A DNA stretch of 64,000 bases from Bartonella tribocorum (GTDB lineage: Bacteria; Pseudomonadota; Alphaproteobacteria; Rhizobiales; Rhizobiaceae). The stretch covers positions 1-64,000 of the forward strand of contig NZ_NJGE01000003.1 of assembly GCF_002777915.1 (NCBI RefSeq), read 5' to 3'. Made by a program: the position numbers and the translations under genes. The notes below the pieces were generated by a model. That model saw only the letters and a list, made by a program, of their open reading frames with translations, did no database searches and was not told the origin of the DNA. This document shows, in pieces, positions 3,662 to 12,199 of this stretch. How positions within the stretch are numbered: position 1 is the stretch's first letter; every line of letters starts with the position of its first letter.

Positions 3662-4423
3662 TTATTGCATATTTCCGTAAATTTGCTCTCTTAAGCAAGC
3701 CAATCCTTTAGATGTAATCTTTGTTGACGGTACGGTTTTTTCTGTACCATCGTTTTTTTGAATAGTAATGGCTGTGCAATCCATTAATCCCTTTTGGATT
3801 TTATCTTGATATGGTAATAAAGGACTGCTTGGCATTCTTCTGTAAACCCAACCATATCTTCGCAAATAATCTGTTAAATCCTTAGGTCTTACTTCCAATA
3901 TTTTTGCTGCCTCTGTAATACCAAACAAGCCGTCGGAACGCTTTAAACCATCAAGAGCTATTGCTTTTGGTTTTAACTCTGCAATTATGATGTCTTTACG
4001 CTCATTTTCGTTTTTTAGATGAGTTAATACACCTAACATTACCTGCGGACTTGAGTAATCGATTTGCTGTGATGTTACTGCCTGCTTTGCACGCCGCTCA
4101 CACTCGATAAAGTATAAACGGGCTTGTTTTCCTTTTTCATTACGCTCTACCATGGCAAGCTCTTTTGCCATGTCTAATGTGAGCTGATAATTAATTGCAA
4201 TAACAGCTCTAGATTTTGCGCTCCCCGATTTTGGGGACCGCAAATCTTGTGTTTTTATGAAATCTTTGCCCTCTTCAAATGCATACTGATTAATACGATC
4301 TTTAATCCAAGTAGAAAAATCTTTACCTACCTCTAAAAACGCGTGCAAATCACGAGCATTTACAGTTTGAACTAATTCACCATCGATTTGAGTTTGATTT
4401 ATGTTAATTAAATATTGCGACAT
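3662..4423 (-). CDS. Phage antirepressor, AntA plus KilAC domains
   Basis: 253 residues. Residues 1-110 match the AntA/AntB fold (VNARDLHAFLEVGKDFSTWIK; ALTLDMAKELAM-like LTLDMAKELAMVERN). Residues 135-253 match the KilAC/ANT DNA-binding domain (GLFGITEAAKILEVRPKDL; LRRYGWVYRR; KITSKGLACL). Such proteins lift repression during lytic induction by binding repressor or DNA. The last gene of a leftward segment, it ends at a bidirectional terminator. Confidence 0.88.
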   Translation of the reverse strand: MSQYLININQTQIDGELVQTVNARDLHAFLEVGKDFSTWIKDRINQYAFEEGKDFIKTQDLRSPKSGSAKSRAVIAINYQLTLDMAKELAMVERNEKGKQARLYFIECERRAKQAVTSQQIDYSSPQVMLGVLTHLKNENERKDIIIAELKPKAIALDGLKRSDGLFGITEAAKILEVRPKDLTDYLRRYGWVYRRMPSSPLLPYQDKIQKGLMDCTAITIQKNDGTEKTVPSTKITSKGLACLREQIYGNMQ

Positions 4424-4488
4424 CTTTTTTTCCTTAAAAATTTAATAAAATTTAAAAAGAAGGCGCCCCCGCCGCGCCCGCGCGTCAT

Positions 4489-4803
4489 TTAAGCAGCCTC
4501 ATTTAGGCTATGCACATTATTCAAATCGGGACTATAAGCTTTCAAAAGAGAAGCTATTGATTTAATTGGTTCAGAATGACCAAACTCTGTAATGATTGCT
4601 AAAATTCTTGTAAAATTAGGAATTTCGTTTTGTAATTTAAAAACCAAGACCTTTTCAAGATCTGCCATAAGTTCCACTAAAGAAACATGATATCCATCTT
4701 CACAATCAATATTTTCACTATTAGCTTCTTTAAACACTGCCATCCACAAATCACATAAGAAATCAGTGGTTATTTTGATGTCGTTTTTTTCTTTAGAATG
4801 CAT
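4489..4803 (-). CDS. Prophage hypothetical protein
   Basis: 104 residues, unrecognised, acidic. The start at 4803 is chosen because AGGTG stands in front of it; the frame is open 13 codons further. It is largely helical (DFLCDLWMAVFKEA; LMADLEKVLVFKLQ) with a Cys pair and no membrane segment. It lies just upstream of the antirepressor on the same strand, separated by a 65-base spacer that holds an unusual 25-base G+C block. Its function is unknown. Confidence 0.6.
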   Translation of the reverse strand: MHSKEKNDIKITTDFLCDLWMAVFKEANSENIDCEDGYHVSLVELMADLEKVLVFKLQNEIPNFTRILAIITEFGHSEPIKSIASLLKAYSPDLNNVHSLNEAA

Positions 4804-5089
4804 TTTAACACCTATTGGTTGGAGTTTTGATTGACAACCCATAAGGGCGCCGGGCGCTCAAAACACGGCCAATAGTCCGTTGCTACGCTTTTCCCATAGG
4901 GGTATTTTATGGCGTAACTACACCCGACATAATCGTTATATGCCAATGACAGCATAAAAGAAAGTCAGTATTTTAAAGAAATGGGAGAAACCTTTTCGTG
5001 GTTTATCCGCTATTGGTCAGTGTTTTGATCACTTGCCAACCTTAATAAACGACCTTTTCTTTAAAGTCAATACGTATTTTTTATTTTTT

Positions 5090-5515
5090 TCACTTTTTTT
5101 CATTTTGATATCTACACAATTGAATATCAAGTGCTTTTTCTAACTCACTGTCTATATCATCATAAGTTTTCACTGCTTTCACTGTACGTTTTTTGATTTT
5201 CGAATTCACCTCATCTATCAATGCCTCATAACTCAATACGCTTTTTGGTAAATCACCTCCGTATATCCACGCTTTCACTTGAGCCTTGGTACTGTAATCA
5301 ACTTTGTCAGGCATCTTATGATCATGATACTGTCCACCATCAAATTCCTCATATTCTCTCTCTCCATCTTCGTATTCGTAAAGATTATAAAAATACTCTG
5401 CTACCCTCGTTCCCCATGGTGCATGCCCCACCGCCGTTGCTACAAACTTCTTTTGAATAGGCTGTTTACGTTTTTTTAAAAACATCTGATTTAATATCCC
5501 CTTGCTTAAATCCAT
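5090..5515 (-). CDS. Prophage hypothetical protein
   Basis: 141 residues, unrecognised. The centre is rich in Tyr, Asp and Glu (YFYNLYEYEDGEREYEEFDGG), and the C-terminal third alternates Lys and Asp/Glu. There is no signal peptide or membrane segment. It stands alone between two spacers of 250 and 210 bases on the leftward strand, with no recognisable partner. Length and reading-frame quality support a real gene, but its role is unknown. Confidence 0.6.
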   Translation of the reverse strand: MDLSKGILNQMFLKKRKQPIQKKFVATAVGHAPWGTRVAEYFYNLYEYEDGEREYEEFDGGQYHDHKMPDKVDYSTKAQVKAWIYGGDLPKSVLSYEALIDEVNSKIKKRTVKAVKTYDDIDSELEKALDIQLCRYQNEKK

Positions 5516-5725
5516 AACTTTACCAATGGGTTTATTTGCCTCAAAATGGACCGTGCAGAAGCGTTTTAAATTTCAATATGGTTTTCATCATAAAATCTTT
5601 AAATCGCTTTGTACGGTACCTTTTTGACGATTTAAACGCATATCTATTCTCAAAACTATCAGCTCTTTTCACTATTTTGCTGTTTTTCGAATGCGATTAA
5701 ATACGATTCCATTATTTAAGTGTCT

Positions 5726-6988
5726 TTAAGCATAGATTGCTGTTGGAAGTATGCTAAATCTTTTTGACTGTTTGTTTTCAAAGATGTTTGACAGTGGTTT
5801 ATAGCATGCGTTTTCATATGATACTTTCACTTCTAATGCTTCTTTCAATTCTAATTCTACGTGTTTCTTAGTTGCCAATCCATATTTTGGATGCGTAATC
5901 CAATTATCCCAAGCAATTTGCCAATTGCGTTCATGTGCATTTCGACATGGATGGGCTTTTGAAAAGCGTACAAATTTTTTAAACTCTGATAACGCTTCAT
6001 CATGCGTTAATCCTAGATCAATTGCGTATTGAAAATCGGGTTTGAAATCTTCTAGTATTCTTTCAACTTCTTGTTTTTCCCTCGTTTTCTTTGTTTCTTC
6101 AAAAAATTTTGCTTTCTCTGGAAAACAAGCAGGCATCACCTTGTCAAGGATTTCTGAAAGTTGTTTACCAACCTTTTTACTTTTTCGTGAAGGCAATTTC
6201 TCAATCATCGCTTCGTTAAGTTGCCATCGGTTGTTAGCTTCGTTTGAAAGATTGATATTTTGCTCGTGAACGATTGGTTGTTTGGTTTCTATCGTTTTGA
6301 TTTGTTCTAATTGAACATCATCACTCTCGATTGCTTTTTCAACCAAATCGTTTGTTTCTAAATTTTCAAAATCAATTTCTTTTTTTGATAAAATAATATT
6401 TTTATCTTTTTTGTTATTGTTAATATTATTGTTAATGTGAATGTTATTGTTATATATATAGGCATCATTAAGCATCGATTTAGCATCATGCTTAGCATGC
6501 TTAGCATCATTAAGCATACCACAAGCATCATGCTTAGCATGCTTAGCATCGTTTTTATTAGTATTTTCAATAACTTGAGCATCATCACAAGCATCACAAG
6601 CATCATTTGCATGTTTATCCCATCTTGCCTGCGCTGCTTTCTTTGCTCTCTCCGATAATCTCTTTGACCGTGATGTTTTTGATGCCTTTTCTAAACTCTC
6701 ATGAGAGTTAGTAAGCTCTTCCTCAACATCTAAATTCCACAAACGACCGTTTGCTAAACGAACAAGGTATCCTTCTTCAAGCAAAACATTTAACGCTGCT
6801 TCAAACTTCTTCACTGAATAACCAGTGTAATGAGATAAAACTTTAATATTATAAAAAAGAGGTTCACCAGTACGCAACATACGTAACCGTAATCGCATAT
6901 AAATATTGCCCTCTACAGCAGGCAAATAATCAACAACCATTGCCCACTTATCTGCAAAAAACCTTGTCCATGGTAATTTACTGGACAT
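5726..6988 (-). CDS. Phage replication protein, DUF1376/YdaU-like
   Basis: 420 residues. Residues 3-90 form the DUF1376-type winged-helix region (LPWTRFFADKWAMVVDYL; LSHYTGYSVKKFEAALNVL), found in prophage replication initiators. Residues 120-200 are a low-complexity linker of repeated DACDD, DAKHAKH and NNN blocks. The C-terminal 190 residues are helical and may bind helicase or loader. The gene lies where replication genes sit in lambdoid phages, overlaps the RuvC-like gene by 11 bases, and its repetitive linker DNA looks like a replication origin (see the separate entry). The initiator role is inferred from family and context. Confidence 0.75.
   Translation of the reverse strand: MSSKLPWTRFFADKWAMVVDYLPAVEGNIYMRLRLRMLRTGEPLFYNIKVLSHYTGYSVKKFEAALNVLLEEGYLVRLANGRLWNLDVEEELTNSHESLEKASKTSRSKRLSERAKKAAQARWDKHANDACDACDDAQVIENTNKNDAKHAKHDACGMLNDAKHAKHDAKSMLNDAYIYNNNIHINNNINNNKKDKNIILSKKEIDFENLETNDLVEKAIESDDVQLEQIKTIETKQPIVHEQNINLSNEANNRWQLNEAMIEKLPSRKSKKVGKQLSEILDKVMPACFPEKAKFFEETKKTREKQEVERILEDFKPDFQYAIDLGLTHDEALSEFKKFVRFSKAHPCRNAHERNWQIAWDNWITHPKYGLATKKHVELELKEALEVKVSYENACYKPLSNIFENKQSKRFSILPTAIYA
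6395..6612. repeat. Iteron-like GCATC/GCATG repeats beside an AT-rich tract (possible phage origin)
   Basis: Inside the replication gene, two identical 27-base copies at 6482-6508 and 6524-6550 lie in a cluster of about a dozen GATGC/GCATC words, several forming near-palindromes such as ATGCTAAGCAT. Immediately left, 6395-6465 is almost pure A+T (TTATTGTTAATATTATTG, then TATATATATA). Repeats followed by an easily melted tract inside the initiator gene is the layout of the lambda origin in gene O. The origin function is inference. Confidence 0.5.
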
Positions 6989-7451
6989 ACCCCAATTCCC
7001 TTTCTTTAACTAAATGTAAAATTGCTAAAGCATCTGCTTCATTGTCATCACAAGGCGCGTGACCCTTTGCACGCATTGCCTTAATCATTTCTTCTTTTGA
7101 CGCATTCCCCTTCCCCGCCGTCGCTTTCTTAATCGTACTTACTGGAATGCCCTCATAAGGTATCTGATGATGTTCACACCACGCCGTTAATGTTGCTAAT
7201 AAACCACCGTAAACGTGCGCTGCATCAGTTCCAACATGACGCCTCACTTCTTCAAAATACACCGCGTCAATATCACCTGCTGTATGCTTTATCTCATTAA
7301 GCCATTGCTTAAAGCGTAAATAACGCATTCCCCCGCCTTCAAAACGACGGGGTTGTAAACTCATCGTACCACTGAATATATGACCATTTCCCCCTCGTAT
7401 CGCCCACCCCATCTTCGTACCTAGATCAAAACAAAGAATCGTGTTAATCAC
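6978..7451 (-). CDS. RuvC-like Holliday-junction/phage endonuclease
   Basis: 157 residues, close to RuvC size. The first strand ILCFDLGTKMGW carries the first catalytic Asp (residue 9), FEEVRRH near residue 68 the second acid, and CDDNEADALAIL near 138 the closing acids of the RNase H fold. It would resolve branched DNA made during phage recombination or packaging. The gene is coupled to the replication gene by an 11-base overlap. It is clearly distinct from a housekeeping ruvC, since no ruvA or ruvB is nearby. Confidence 0.85.
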   Translation of the reverse strand: MINTILCFDLGTKMGWAIRGGNGHIFSGTMSLQPRRFEGGGMRYLRFKQWLNEIKHTAGDIDAVYFEEVRRHVGTDAAHVYGGLLATLTAWCEHHQIPYEGIPVSTIKKATAGKGNASKEEMIKAMRAKGHAPCDDNEADALAILHLVKERELGYVQ

Positions 7452-7514
7452 CGCACCGCTCCATACATAATGTGTTTTATAAGATTGTTTTTTCCTAAAA
7501 GCGGGTAAAGAAAG

Positions 7515-8453
7515 ATGTTGAAGCGTGCAAACGTATATAAATACGGGAGTATATTCCTTACATTAATTGGAATAGTGATTATGTTCCTTAATTGGAAGGT
7601 ATGCTTAAATTGGATAGAACAACACCCTACCCTTTTTTCTGCACTTTCTTCGGTTGGTGCTTTATTATCCGCAATTTTTTCTTTTCGTTCTATTAAACAG
7701 ACATTGAATTTAAGAAATGAAGATCGAATAGAAGCTGCAAAATTGAGAAGAGAAGATCGAATAGAAGCTGCAAAATTGAGAAGAGAAGATCGAATAGAAG
7801 CTGCAAAGTTTAGAAGAGAAGACCGAGAAAAATTTGAAACAGAATTAGCCAATGCCGTGGACATAGCTAAATCAACTAAACAACAAGCAATATCAATGGA
7901 AAAGCTTGCCACAGTTCTGGAAAAACAATTAGAGATTTTAGAAGAAAAAAAGCTCCGTGTTACCACACACAGTTCATGGATAAGTGATAATCCTAATGAT
8001 ATCTTTCCAGTAATATATGTATCTTTAATCATTACAAACCCCACAAAACAAACAATTAAAATCAACTCTATCAGCATACAGGATAATAGCCTTTTTATCT
8101 TTATGTCCGCATGCTATCGCGAACTTTCGCCACAATCATTAGGAACACTACATTACATCCATCCTCAACAGGAAAAACACTTATGCTTAAAGAAACCTCG
8201 AGTCGATCCACCCATACATAGCGATATTGATCCATTTAGCCTCAAACCTTCTGGTCTATTAGGACTAATTATTCGTGTTTTTCCTATAGACAGAAACTCA
8301 GAAATTCCTTTAATATTGACTATGGAGCACACTGCCGTAAATCCTTTAAATCCACCAGAAAAAGTGACTTTTTGCCCCGAATATTTTAATATTAAACCAA
8401 GAAATAAACTATCCGATCTGTTGTATTCCAAGCTGTTTCCATTCAATAAATAA
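7515..8453 (+). CDS. Membrane protein with coiled-coil repeats, prophage cargo candidate
   Basis: 312 residues, unrecognised. Two hydrophobic segments (about residues 10-27 and 40-57) are followed by a charged coiled coil containing three copies of an 11-residue RREDRIEAAK unit (residues about 69-101). A C-terminal soluble domain of about 170 residues is rich in beta-type sequence (VIYVSLIITNP; LGLIIRVFPIDR). It is read against the surrounding leftward genes with its own start (AAAGAAAG before ATG). The minus-strand frame across it is a shadow. A membrane-tethered sensor or superinfection-exclusion role is possible but not shown. Confidence 0.7.
   Translation: MLKRANVYKYGSIFLTLIGIVIMFLNWKVCLNWIEQHPTLFSALSSVGALLSAIFSFRSIKQTLNLRNEDRIEAAKLRREDRIEAAKLRREDRIEAAKFRREDREKFETELANAVDIAKSTKQQAISMEKLATVLEKQLEILEEKKLRVTTHSSWISDNPNDIFPVIYVSLIITNPTKQTIKINSISIQDNSLFIFMSACYRELSPQSLGTLHYIHPQQEKHLCLKKPRVDPPIHSDIDPFSLKPSGLLGLIIRVFPIDRNSEIPLILTMEHTAVNPLNPPEKVTFCPEYFNIKPRNKLSDLLYSKLFPFNK
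7719..7817 (+). repeat. Three tandem 33-base repeats in a coiled coil
   Basis: Units begin at 7719, 7752 and 7785 with almost identical bases (GAAGATCGAATAGAAGCTGC at the start of each), and a decayed fourth start follows at 7818. Each unit encodes exactly 11 residues, so copy-number change would lengthen or shorten the coiled coil without a frameshift. Confidence 0.9.
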
Positions 8454-9057
8454 CCGTTTTCCAACATGATGAATAACGATGTTGTTCCTCAGGGCTTTTT
8501 TCAGCCAACTCGGCCCATGTCATTGGCTTTGGTTTCATAAGAAGAAATGATAAATATTGTGCCCTATCCCATTGATTGGCTTCTGCAACTGTAACCGATT
8601 GTTTTGCCATAAACCATCTATTGAAATCTTCAATAATTTCAATTGCTTCATTCTTTGTCTGTTCATCCTTCCTCAATTGTTGCAATATCTTTCGTGCTCT
8701 ATCATCATCTTTTTCATCACTATATTTATTTATAATTGGAGCTTTGTTTACAAACTCTCTTACAAGCGCACGAACATCTTCAGACTCTTGAAGATTGTCA
8801 TTAATATTTTTATATGACGTCACACATTCTTGCTCTTTAGGATTCTTCTGTAAACGTTCCTGCTCTTTTTGTTCTTGCAATTCTTGTAACCATTTAATTT
8901 CTTTATCATTTTCTGCTAATTGTCCCTCCATCAACGCTTTTTGTGACGCTATTAACTCATCTCTTAATTCTATCTCTTTTGCCAGTTTAGAAGCTTTGAA
9001 ATAATAGTAGAAAGCCAAAGTTATTGCTAAAATCACTAATATCGTTGTATCTTCCAT
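8443..9057 (-). CDS. Membrane-anchored coiled-coil prophage protein
   Basis: 204 residues. A short N-terminal hydrophobic anchor (residues 4-19, ILVILAITLAFYYYF) is followed by a coiled coil to about 75 rich in Glu, Gln and Lys. A helical C-terminal domain (about 90-204) contains DDDRARKILQQLRKDE and ends in a Trp-containing tail. It has no known family. The start has GGAG eight bases upstream. It lies 10 bases after the next anchored coiled-coil gene, so the two are likely one transcript, and it overlaps the convergent plus-strand membrane gene by 11 bases. Confidence 0.7.
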   Translation of the reverse strand: MEDTTILVILAITLAFYYYFKASKLAKEIELRDELIASQKALMEGQLAENDKEIKWLQELQEQKEQERLQKNPKEQECVTSYKNINDNLQESEDVRALVREFVNKAPIINKYSDEKDDDRARKILQQLRKDEQTKNEAIEIIEDFNRWFMAKQSVTVAEANQWDRAQYLSFLLMKPKPMTWAELAEKSPEEQHRYSSCWKTVIY

Positions 9058-11027: not shown

Positions 11028-11660
11028 ATGGAAAAAAAATACGAACTTACTGATGAGAAAATTCAACCTGGCTTTAAGAAACTTCATAGAATTAGAGCAT
11101 TGAGAGACTTTGGAGATGTTAAAGCTGGTGATTTAGGCGGCTTTATAGAAAAAGAAGATAACCTATCCCATGAAGGCAATTGCTGGATTGGTGATAATGC
11201 TCGTGTTTATGGTCATGCACAGATTTTTGGTGATGCCTTGGTTTATGATGATGTCAATGTTTGTCGTCATGCCAAGGTTTTTGATAATGCCCGTGTTTAT
11301 GGGAACGCATGGGTTTTTGATGATGCACATGTTTGTGGTAATGCCGAGGTTTATGACCATGCACGTGTTTATGGGGATGCCAAGGTTTATGGTGATGCTA
11401 AGGTTTTTGGAAATGCCGTGATTTCTGATGATGCCAAGGTTTATGAAAATGCATGGGTTTATAGCAATGCCGAAGTTTTTGGCAATGCCAATATTTATGG
11501 CAATGCGCGAGTTTTCGGTAAAGCAAATGTTTCCGGTAATACGAAGATTTACGACAAAGCTAGTATTTTGGGGAATGCCAAAGTTTATGGCAACAACTGT
11601 ATTTATGGTGATGCACAAGTAACTGGAAATACAGAAGAATCCGAAAACGACTCTGTTTAA
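11028..11660 (+). CDS. Hexapeptide-repeat left-handed beta-helix protein, copy 1
   Basis: 210 residues. Residues 1-50 form a conserved cap (MEKKYELTDE; KLHRIRALRDFGDVKAGDLGGFIE). From about 55 to 200 the chain is a run of about 25 six-residue units of the form N-A-x-V-Y-G, with D/N, A and V/I at fixed places, the rule of left-handed parallel beta-helices. No acyltransferase catalytic His loop is visible, so it may be structural or a binding protein. It is followed 14 bases later by a paralog. The units repeat at DNA level in 18-base steps. Confidence 0.8.
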   Translation: MEKKYELTDEKIQPGFKKLHRIRALRDFGDVKAGDLGGFIEKEDNLSHEGNCWIGDNARVYGHAQIFGDALVYDDVNVCRHAKVFDNARVYGNAWVFDDAHVCGNAEVYDHARVYGDAKVYGDAKVFGNAVISDDAKVYENAWVYSNAEVFGNANIYGNARVFGKANVSGNTKIYDKASILGNAKVYGNNCIYGDAQVTGNTEESENDSV

Positions 11661-11674
11661 GGTAGGGGGTAATC

Positions 11675-12199
11675 ATGGAAAAGAAGTACGAACTGACTGA
11701 TGAGACAATCAAAGTTGGTAGAAAAACACTTCACCGAATTAGAGCATTGAGAGACTTTGGAGATGTTAAAAAAGGTGATCTAGGTGGATTTATAGAACAT
11801 GAAGACAACCTAAGCCATGAGGGAAATTGCTGGGTAGCGGGTTCGCATAGACCATTTGACAGTGGATATGTTTTTGGAAATGCTAAGGTTTTTGGAAATG
11901 CCGTGATTTCTGATGATGCCGCGGTTTATGGTGATGCCATGGTTTATGACAATGCAGAAGTTTTTGGCGGCGCTAAGGTTTATGGTGATGCACGTATTTA
12001 TGGAAATGCCAAGATCTATGAGACCGCCTTCGTTTTGGGTCGTGCATGGGTTTATGATCATGCCAAGGTTTATGGTTGTGCCGTGGTTCGTGGTCGTGCC
12101 AAGATTTATGACCATGCCAAAGTTTATGGTTTTGCTAACATTTATGGGAAAGCCCACATTCGCGACAGAACAAGAATTCTTCAAGATATAAAAATTTAA
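11675..12199 (+). CDS. Hexapeptide-repeat left-handed beta-helix protein, copy 2
   Basis: 174 residues, a paralog of the preceding gene. The first 55 residues are almost identical (MEKKYELTDETI; LHRIRALRDFGDVKKGDLGG), then about 18 N-A-x-V-Y-G units follow. It differs by a shorter helix, an inserted HRPFDSGYVFG stretch at about 55-65, and a different end (FANIYGKAHIRDRTRI). GGTAGGGGG precedes the start. The tandem copies probably arose by duplication and then unequal exchange of repeat units. Confidence 0.8.
   Translation: MEKKYELTDETIKVGRKTLHRIRALRDFGDVKKGDLGGFIEHEDNLSHEGNCWVAGSHRPFDSGYVFGNAKVFGNAVISDDAAVYGDAMVYDNAEVFGGAKVYGDARIYGNAKIYETAFVLGRAWVYDHAKVYGCAVVRGRAKIYDHAKVYGFANIYGKAHIRDRTRILQDIKI

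Follow-up and report, generated by a model that had tools for sequence, protein, structure and literature searches.

A virus remnant in Bartonella very likely carries its replication start inside the gene of the protein that would bind it, as judged by comparison with related genes. The DNA analysed here, referred to as the window, is a stretch of 64,000 nucleotides of Bartonella tribocorum. Comparison of relatives shows a shared layout, in which a winged helix is followed by a linker containing repeated DNA words (iterons), an A+T tract, an inverted repeat and the C-terminal part of the protein. It also shows that a basic segment of 12 residues, encoded next to the iterons, matches the class of iteron that the gene carries. 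In the window gene, these elements are placed as follows:

5726-6988, minus strand: initiator-type gene of 420 aa, DUF1376 / phrog_3992 'primosomal protein' (Pfam PF07120, E 2.5e-7; PHROG 3992, E 2.8e-37)
6713-6973, minus strand: winged-helix DUF1376 domain, aa 6-92 (Pfam; confident AlphaFold2 region)
6620-6655, minus strand: basic segment SERAKKAAQARW, aa 112-123, putative iteron-specificity determinant (12-aa nearest neighbour, sliding window, predicted helix)
6462-6607, minus strand: iteron array with the words ATGCT/AGCAT and the dyads AGCATCATGCT and ATGCTTAGCAT in plus-strand reading (synonymous shuffle p = 0.001)
6482-6508: 27-base repeat, copy 1, exact match
6524-6550: 27-base repeat, copy 2, exact match
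6391-6461: A+T tract, putative DNA unwinding element (62 of 71 bases A or T)
6387-6406: inverted repeat with 7-bp arms (6387-6393 and 6400-6406) and a 6-nt loop
5789-6268, minus strand: C-terminal domain, aa 241-400 (AlphaFold2)

The protein matches DUF1376 (PF07120) with 31.4 bits, above the curated cut-off of 30.1, and the same profile is matched by all 34 relatives of set A1 (E <= 0.01). In the AlphaFold2 model, the winged helix is confident and the C-terminal domain mostly so; a helix at residues 109-138 has low confidence, as does the region 128-242, hence the linker whose coding sequence contains the iterons is probably floppy. For the winged helix, VIA-align returned general winged-helix proteins only (Z up to 8.8). 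A match to DnaT (PF17948) is weak, being found in seven of the 34 relatives (best E 0.00098), and is absent from the window protein itself. As a single query, the window protein retrieved no relative from the viral, genome and plasmid collections, and only phiLM21, under two accessions, from the phage collection. A sequence search of solved structures gave no match and Foldseek none at E <= 0.001. Membership of the Phage_rep_O / lambda O family (PF04492, TIGR01610) was rejected, with no Pfam match at E 0.1 and no NCBIfam match at 0.01. The gene is surrounded by other prophage genes. It lies downstream of a RuvC-like gene on the same strand (6978-7451), anti-repressor and SSB genes are found further down, and the next minus-strand genes (5090-5515 and 4489-4842) belong to PHROGs of unknown function without a Pfam family. 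No helicase or loader gene was found among the 13 window proteins scanned with Pfam and PHROG.

The repeats of the window gene are real and far beyond chance. The sequence-only reading had reported two exact 27-base repeats and near-palindromic words beside an A+T tract, all inside a DUF1376 gene, and had likened them to the lambda origin. Both repeats are exact, the dyads AGCATCATGCT and ATGCTTAGCAT occur twice and four times, and all of these elements lie within the minus-strand ORF. Its 'about a dozen' GATGC/GCATC words are indeed in excess but were overcounted, as the plus strand of 6395-6612 contains nine GCATC and no GATGC; in 2000 draws from a first-order Markov model of the gene, GCATC occurred 0.42 times on average and at most four times. 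The A+T tract is likewise present, but 'almost pure' was slightly strong for a content of 87% (window mean 64%). Over codons 100-177, 76 repeated 8-mer pairs were counted against 24.7 expected from synonymous-codon shuffles that preserve the protein (p = 0.001), the shuffles reproducing about one third of the linker repeats. Three other stretches of the gene gave no significant excess (p 0.25, 0.77 and 0.15), and lambda O, serving as positive control, gave p = 0.001 over its iterons. Lysine is encoded by four AAG and two AAA codons in linker 126-180, versus ten and 32 elsewhere in the gene. Across the window's genome, the iteron pattern with up to two mismatches has four matches in the window gene and one elsewhere, with two mismatches. 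A DnaA-dependent iteron origin was also considered and rejected, since TTWTNCACA is found on neither strand of window positions 4001-9000.

Relatives were found in 30 of the 61 genomes searched, all within the genus of the window and often several per genome. A total of 113 distinct full-length genes, window included, was taken from Bartonella genomes and from viral contigs with no named host, after exclusion of ORFs containing X, broken by stops or shorter than 260 aa. An inverted-repeat frame stands behind the repeat-bearing linker and the A+T tract in 106 of them; the seven without this palindrome frame (L041, L085, L096, L101-L104) were dropped before the counts. Of these seven, L096 shows a different, longer dyad when inspected by eye. 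The tract often encodes NNNNIYNKK, and the A+T maximum of the gene falls at the tract before the inverted repeat in 101 of the 106 genes. Many initiator genes are preceded by short ORFs of about 110-140 aa whose predicted product has a winged helix resembling that of DUF1376; these are possible competitors or regulators (L042, L043, L048, L049, L054, L058, L065-L067, L076-L079, L081, L086, L089-L092 and L095).

Linker repeats exceed synonymous shuffles at p <= 0.05 in 92 of the 106 genes and at 0.01 in 68; summed over the 106 linkers, there are 2384 repeated 8-mer pairs against 575. A C-terminal region of the same size, taken as control, holds 175 pairs against 82, with 18 of 106 genes at p <= 0.05, indicating that the repeat test has some background. 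The sequence-only reading had proposed an alignment of relatives, and had held that relatives lacking repeated words in the linker would speak against it. In this comparison, the DNA words persist and the encoded residues shift in frame and identity. Linkers of the adverse kind form a minority (14 of 106 not significant at 0.05; L065 has no repeated 8-mer at all). The comparison supports the lambda-ori-like reading and, at the level of sequence, demonstrates selection acting on the DNA of both the linker repeats and the inverted repeat.

The iteron word differs among relatives and falls into classes. Clustering of the linkers by 6-mers gave six groups, the largest of which was split by word counts into A, B and mixed AB, making seven classes without the mixed one. 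Class A (38 genes) carries ATGCT/AGCAT dyads, class B (8 genes) GCAATGC, class C (12 genes) TCATGATGA, class D (6 genes) TCTTCAAGA, class E (28 genes) TTTGCTGAAGCAAA, class F (8 genes) ATACGGAAT and class G (2 genes) ATGCG words, the mixed class AB comprising four genes. GCAATGC occurs in all three reading frames (12, 6 and 7 times), as does ATACGGA (3, 15 and 6 times), and most other class words occur in two; AGCAT is almost always in one frame (81 of 84), and TCTTGAAGA and GCGATGCG are in one frame each. Because the same word is found in different frames within a class, protein function alone is an insufficient explanation. Incompatibility between prophages of one genome was looked for and not seen: prophages sharing a genome differ in class no more than by chance, with eight same-class pairs among 51 against 8.6 expected.

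Judged by nearest neighbours, the iteron class is unrelated to the C-terminal part of the protein and partly follows the winged helix. It goes with a protein stretch of about 12 residues, SExAxKAAxARW, which lies between the winged helix and the repeats and may read the adjacent DNA words. The nearest neighbour by these 12 residues has the same iteron class in 102 of 102 genes at three redundancy cuts, strict counts that exclude the four mixed AB genes; with A, B and AB merged, agreement is 106 of 106. The initial test had used 22 residues (101 of 102) and was redone with 12 because the 22 partly encoded the iterons. At the same three cuts, the class is right in 80, 80 and 76 of 102 genes by the winged helix, in 82, 80 and 70 by the 22 residues that directly follow the iterons, and in 23.2, 20.8 and 6.5 by the C-terminal part, for which random expectation is 24.1, 23.9 and 21.5. 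In a window slid along the protein, agreement is 0.65-0.80 in the winged helix, climbs from residue 85 and reaches 1.0 at 109-120. The winged helix as sole specificity determinant was rejected, its association with class being only partial. Winged helices that are 98-100% identical can differ in class (L092/L217, L068/L087 and L050/L089), 52 pairs differ in class at an identity of at least 80%, and 400 pairs share a class with winged helices less than 45% identical. A quick winged-helix tree requires at least 22 changes of class, and a C-terminal tree 53. Since the segment adjoins the iterons, linkage adds to the match between segment and class, and the perfect agreement may partly reflect this neighbourhood; the persistence of the pairing in unrelated phages argues for a function.

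Beyond Bartonella, the pairing of segment and word appears to recur in unrelated phages. Excess repeats (p <= 0.05, word length 9) were found in 14 of 22 non-Bartonella DUF1376 genes, including ydaU and phiLM21; this count excludes L251, which has an N run, L266 and L267, which gave no hit, and three Bartonella loci. In L262, L263, L264 and L269, the profile built for this analysis placed the domain poorly (E 0.24-4.8). Among 77 non-redundant genes, which include two Bartonella genes of the run-off replication (ROR) type discussed below (L259 and L260), one of four segment motifs is present in 68 and none is recognised in nine. At least two copies of the motif-typical word are present in 48 of the 68 genes (shuffled labels: mean 15, maximum 25 in 2000) and two copies of another motif's word in one gene only, the motifs and words of this count having been picked by eye from those same sequences. 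With reversed words as control, the counts for the four motifs were 0, 0, 0 and 6, the six belonging to the ACCCAG type. When motifs and words were frozen and applied to held-out genes, 14 of 19 motif-bearing genes agreed (shuffles: mean 7.2, maximum 12). Of these 19, 12 are AGKAS and nearly all come from viral contigs related to training loci; nine of the 28 held-out genes have no recognised motif. The four pairings are:

SAxxRW with GCAATGCG-type words: 20 of 23 genes; held-out, 1 of 2
AGKAS with GTTCAAC/GTTGAAC: 18 of 26 genes; held-out, 11 of 12
ANxxRW with AAATCAGA-type words: 6 of 9 genes; held-out, 2 of 2
NGxxGGR with ACCCAG-type words, the weakest pairing: 4 of 10 genes; held-out, 0 of 3

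A further test used the chosen motifs and no chosen words: when each gene was compared by linker DNA with genes whose winged helices are less than 45% identical to its own, the nearest neighbour carried the same motif in 80 of 87 cases, versus 24 expected. Another repeat stands behind the iterons, where at least three AACC words exactly seven bases apart were found in 62 of 105 DUF1376-like genes. Of the 87 genes with a motif, 59 show this spacing, and all four groups are represented among them; of the 18 genes without one, three show it. A seven-base period passes through each of the three frames, hence this spacing, too, looks like a DNA element. AAC repeats with a period of six were not found in the non-Bartonella phages, the period being seven.

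The inverted repeat behind the tract was found in the present analysis and is absent from the sequence-only reading. Its form in the window, GATAAAA-ATATTA-TTTTATC, occurs once in the genome at up to two mismatches and is weak as a hairpin (z -1.25). In relatives, it takes the form CTAAxAC-TATC-GTx'TTAG directly after the A+T tract; in the window's genome, this form is exact in two DUF1376 paralogues and is found with one mismatch at one place, in an ORF read by eye as ValS-like. At the variable pair, 50 genes have A.T, 28 have T.A and 27 have C.G, and one is unmatched, so the repeat is symmetric at this site in 105 of 106 genes. One side of the pair falls on the third position of a Lys/Asn codon and, in 100 of the 106, the other falls on the synonymous third position of a Val codon. 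Over 54 distinct rows, 96.8% of cells are paired versus 82.5% in shuffles, the covariation score is 0.296 versus 0.067 +/- 0.014 (reached by 0 of 500 shuffles), and 52 cells are changed on both sides versus 23; slid partners score at most 0.027. Two of the five covariation measures lend no clear support to the stem; pairs changed on both sides number 3 versus 2.0 (10 of 500 shuffles) and pair types 4 versus 4.0 (494 of 500). The outermost stem pair is unmatched in eight of the 54 rows. On a quick C-terminal tree, the variable pair changes state at least 28 times, although block transfer of the segment by recombination is possible and the changes are therefore not necessarily independent mutations.

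The window gene has the lambda-type architecture, with several dyad iterons inside an initiator-type gene and an adjoining A+T-rich tract. The lambda ori is described as containing four iterons with dyads of 18 bp and an A+T region of 39 bp (PMC6022878), an in-gene origin with dyad iterons and an A+T region being the lambda design. Lambda O and the window protein share an N-terminal DNA-binding domain, iterons in their own gene, the adjoining A+T tract and then an inverted repeat, whose arms in lambda, as read from the sequence, are 7 bp long (GTCAGAG/CTCTGAC) and stand in the same place as in Bartonella. They differ in family, as lambda O itself matches the PF04492/TIGR01610 profiles and the window protein PF07120, with an hhalign probability of 0.2. 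In addition, no P-like gene was recognised among the 13 window proteins scanned, and the iteron words are unrelated.

In Bartonella, a lambda-O-like in-gene origin was proposed for gene 4 of run-off replication (Guy et al. 2013, PMC3610622), and an amplification peak was reported near a phage helicase (Berglund et al. 2009, PMC2697382). The window gene was rejected as the ROR initiator, because it is not just upstream of a phage helicase gene and because an ROR-like DUF1376 gene is present on contig C25 of the same genome. This gene (L239:8787-9842) is probably ROR gene 4; it lies upstream of an ORF read as helicase-like, which fits that assignment. Like the window gene, it belongs to the same genus and to DUF1376, and the in-gene origin proposed in PMC3610622 follows the lambda O model, but it seems only distantly paralogous, scoring 27.7 bits against the window protein, and it has an AGRSS segment and no palindrome frame. 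In the linkers of its relatives L259 and L101-L103, TTCAAC words are seen by eye, as the AGKAS pairing would predict; the strict word count for ROR-type genes is one in L259 and zero in L260.

The gene ydaU of the E. coli Rac prophage (L242:8120-8977) is likewise a DUF1376 gene and encodes the basic segment SAAGKASVQAR. It carries TGTTCAAACA twice and TGTTTGAACA once (TGTTCAAACA-type words at L242 8512, 8545 and 8568), then an A+T stretch and a C-run/G-run, but the strict form GTTCAAC/GTTGAAC is absent (count zero). The next gene, ydaV, is annotated as a putative ATP-binding protein. The repeat region of ydaU is a candidate for oriJ of the Rac prophage.

Taken jointly, a temperate-phage origin located in its own initiator gene, with iteron binding, melting, DnaB recruitment and cassette exchange, is in our view highly probable. 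The initiator would bind the mostly dyad-symmetric words through the basic helix just behind the winged helix, with the winged helix assisting, and would pile up on the iterons. Once stacked, it would help to melt the A+T tract adjoining the inverted repeat, and the C-terminal domain, DnaT-like in some relatives, would recruit the host DnaB helicase. The basic helix and the iterons would travel between phages as one cassette, so that each allele carries its matching site, the winged helix and the C-terminal part being exchanged on either side. We infer origin function, binding, melting and helicase loading, as well as specific contacts made by the segment.

Such an origin could also be read by the winged helix, the basic segment merely hitch-hiking as the nearest piece, a possibility that we regard as rather unlikely. 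Winged-helix windows do predict class well above chance (0.65-0.80), the stretch beyond the iterons predicts it as well (70-82 of 102) and, for 65 of 87 genes from other phages, the closest gene by winged helix has the same motif. However, this does not account for nearly identical winged helices that differ in class, for the 52 such pairs at 80% identity or above and the 400 same-class pairs below 45%, or for a pairing kept across phages with winged helices less than 45% identical. The inverted repeat could be an RNA hairpin in the message, involved in stability, processing or attenuation and without a role at the origin, and the covariation, which preserves pairing and not sequence, would agree with this. 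It is nonetheless improbable, as the stem is short and A/T-rich, with DNA folding energies of -3.3 to -5.4 kcal/mol in four sequences, and lies within a translated frame, and the lambda inverted repeat is found at the same place.

Replication might instead start elsewhere, the iterons serving the DUF1376 protein, or the short DUF1376 proteins encoded upstream, as operator-like or copy-control sites. The short winged-helix ORFs upstream of many genes favour such regulation, and an upstream ORF with an RW-type basic segment precedes a class A, AB or B gene in 16 of 17 cases. Yet the words stand mid-gene, beside the A+T tract and the covarying dyad, as in the lambda ori, and the genome contains the iteron pattern at a single other place besides the four in the window gene; the inverted repeat of the window is unique there, and the relatives' form is limited to the two DUF1376 paralogues and the one-mismatch ValS-like ORF. 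A purely regulatory role thus seems very unlikely. That the linker repeats are functionless slippage expansions is hardly credible: the region is predicted to be disordered and some arrays are tandem, but the repeats exceed synonymous shuffles and are found in more than one reading frame and, in unrelated phages, word and upstream segment remain associated.

The origin reading extends to a broader proposal, to which we give somewhat better than even chances: DUF1376 proteins would be widespread phage initiators with a simple and mostly legible DNA-recognition code, in which the iteron would be specified by some 12 residues following the winged helix, and segment and target would be swapped within the gene as a self-matching cassette. 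Besides the four pairings listed above, the proposed code would pair SEKAIKAANT with TCATGATGA and AERAAKAANT with TCTTCAAGA. On balance, we also lean towards the covarying dyad in Bartonella and AACC at seven-base spacing in many other phages being further DNA elements. If true, a domain of unknown function common in prophages would gain a function and a mechanism, and origins could be read from sequence in uncultured phages. It would also be relevant to oriJ of the E. coli Rac prophage as well as to the run-off origin of Bartonella, and the natural segment/site pairs would provide a set for testing a short DNA-recognition code. In the literature searched, which covers few subscription papers, no account of DUF1376 origins or of the segment-word pairing was found. 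The in-gene origin is a known kind; as far as searched, the family and the code are new, together with the generality of the in-gene layout, the covarying dyad and the segment-word pairing.

Other repeats and remnants were observed along the way. Contig C37 (L038) carries a broken copy of the C-terminal part of the window gene, 92% identical and with an in-frame stop. At window positions 7719-7826, a 33-bp unit is present in 3.3 tandem copies within the ORF 7515-8453 and encodes a charged repeat. Two adjacent ORFs at 11028-12199 consist of short repeats of the DAKVYGNARVFGNA type and look beta-helix-like by eye.
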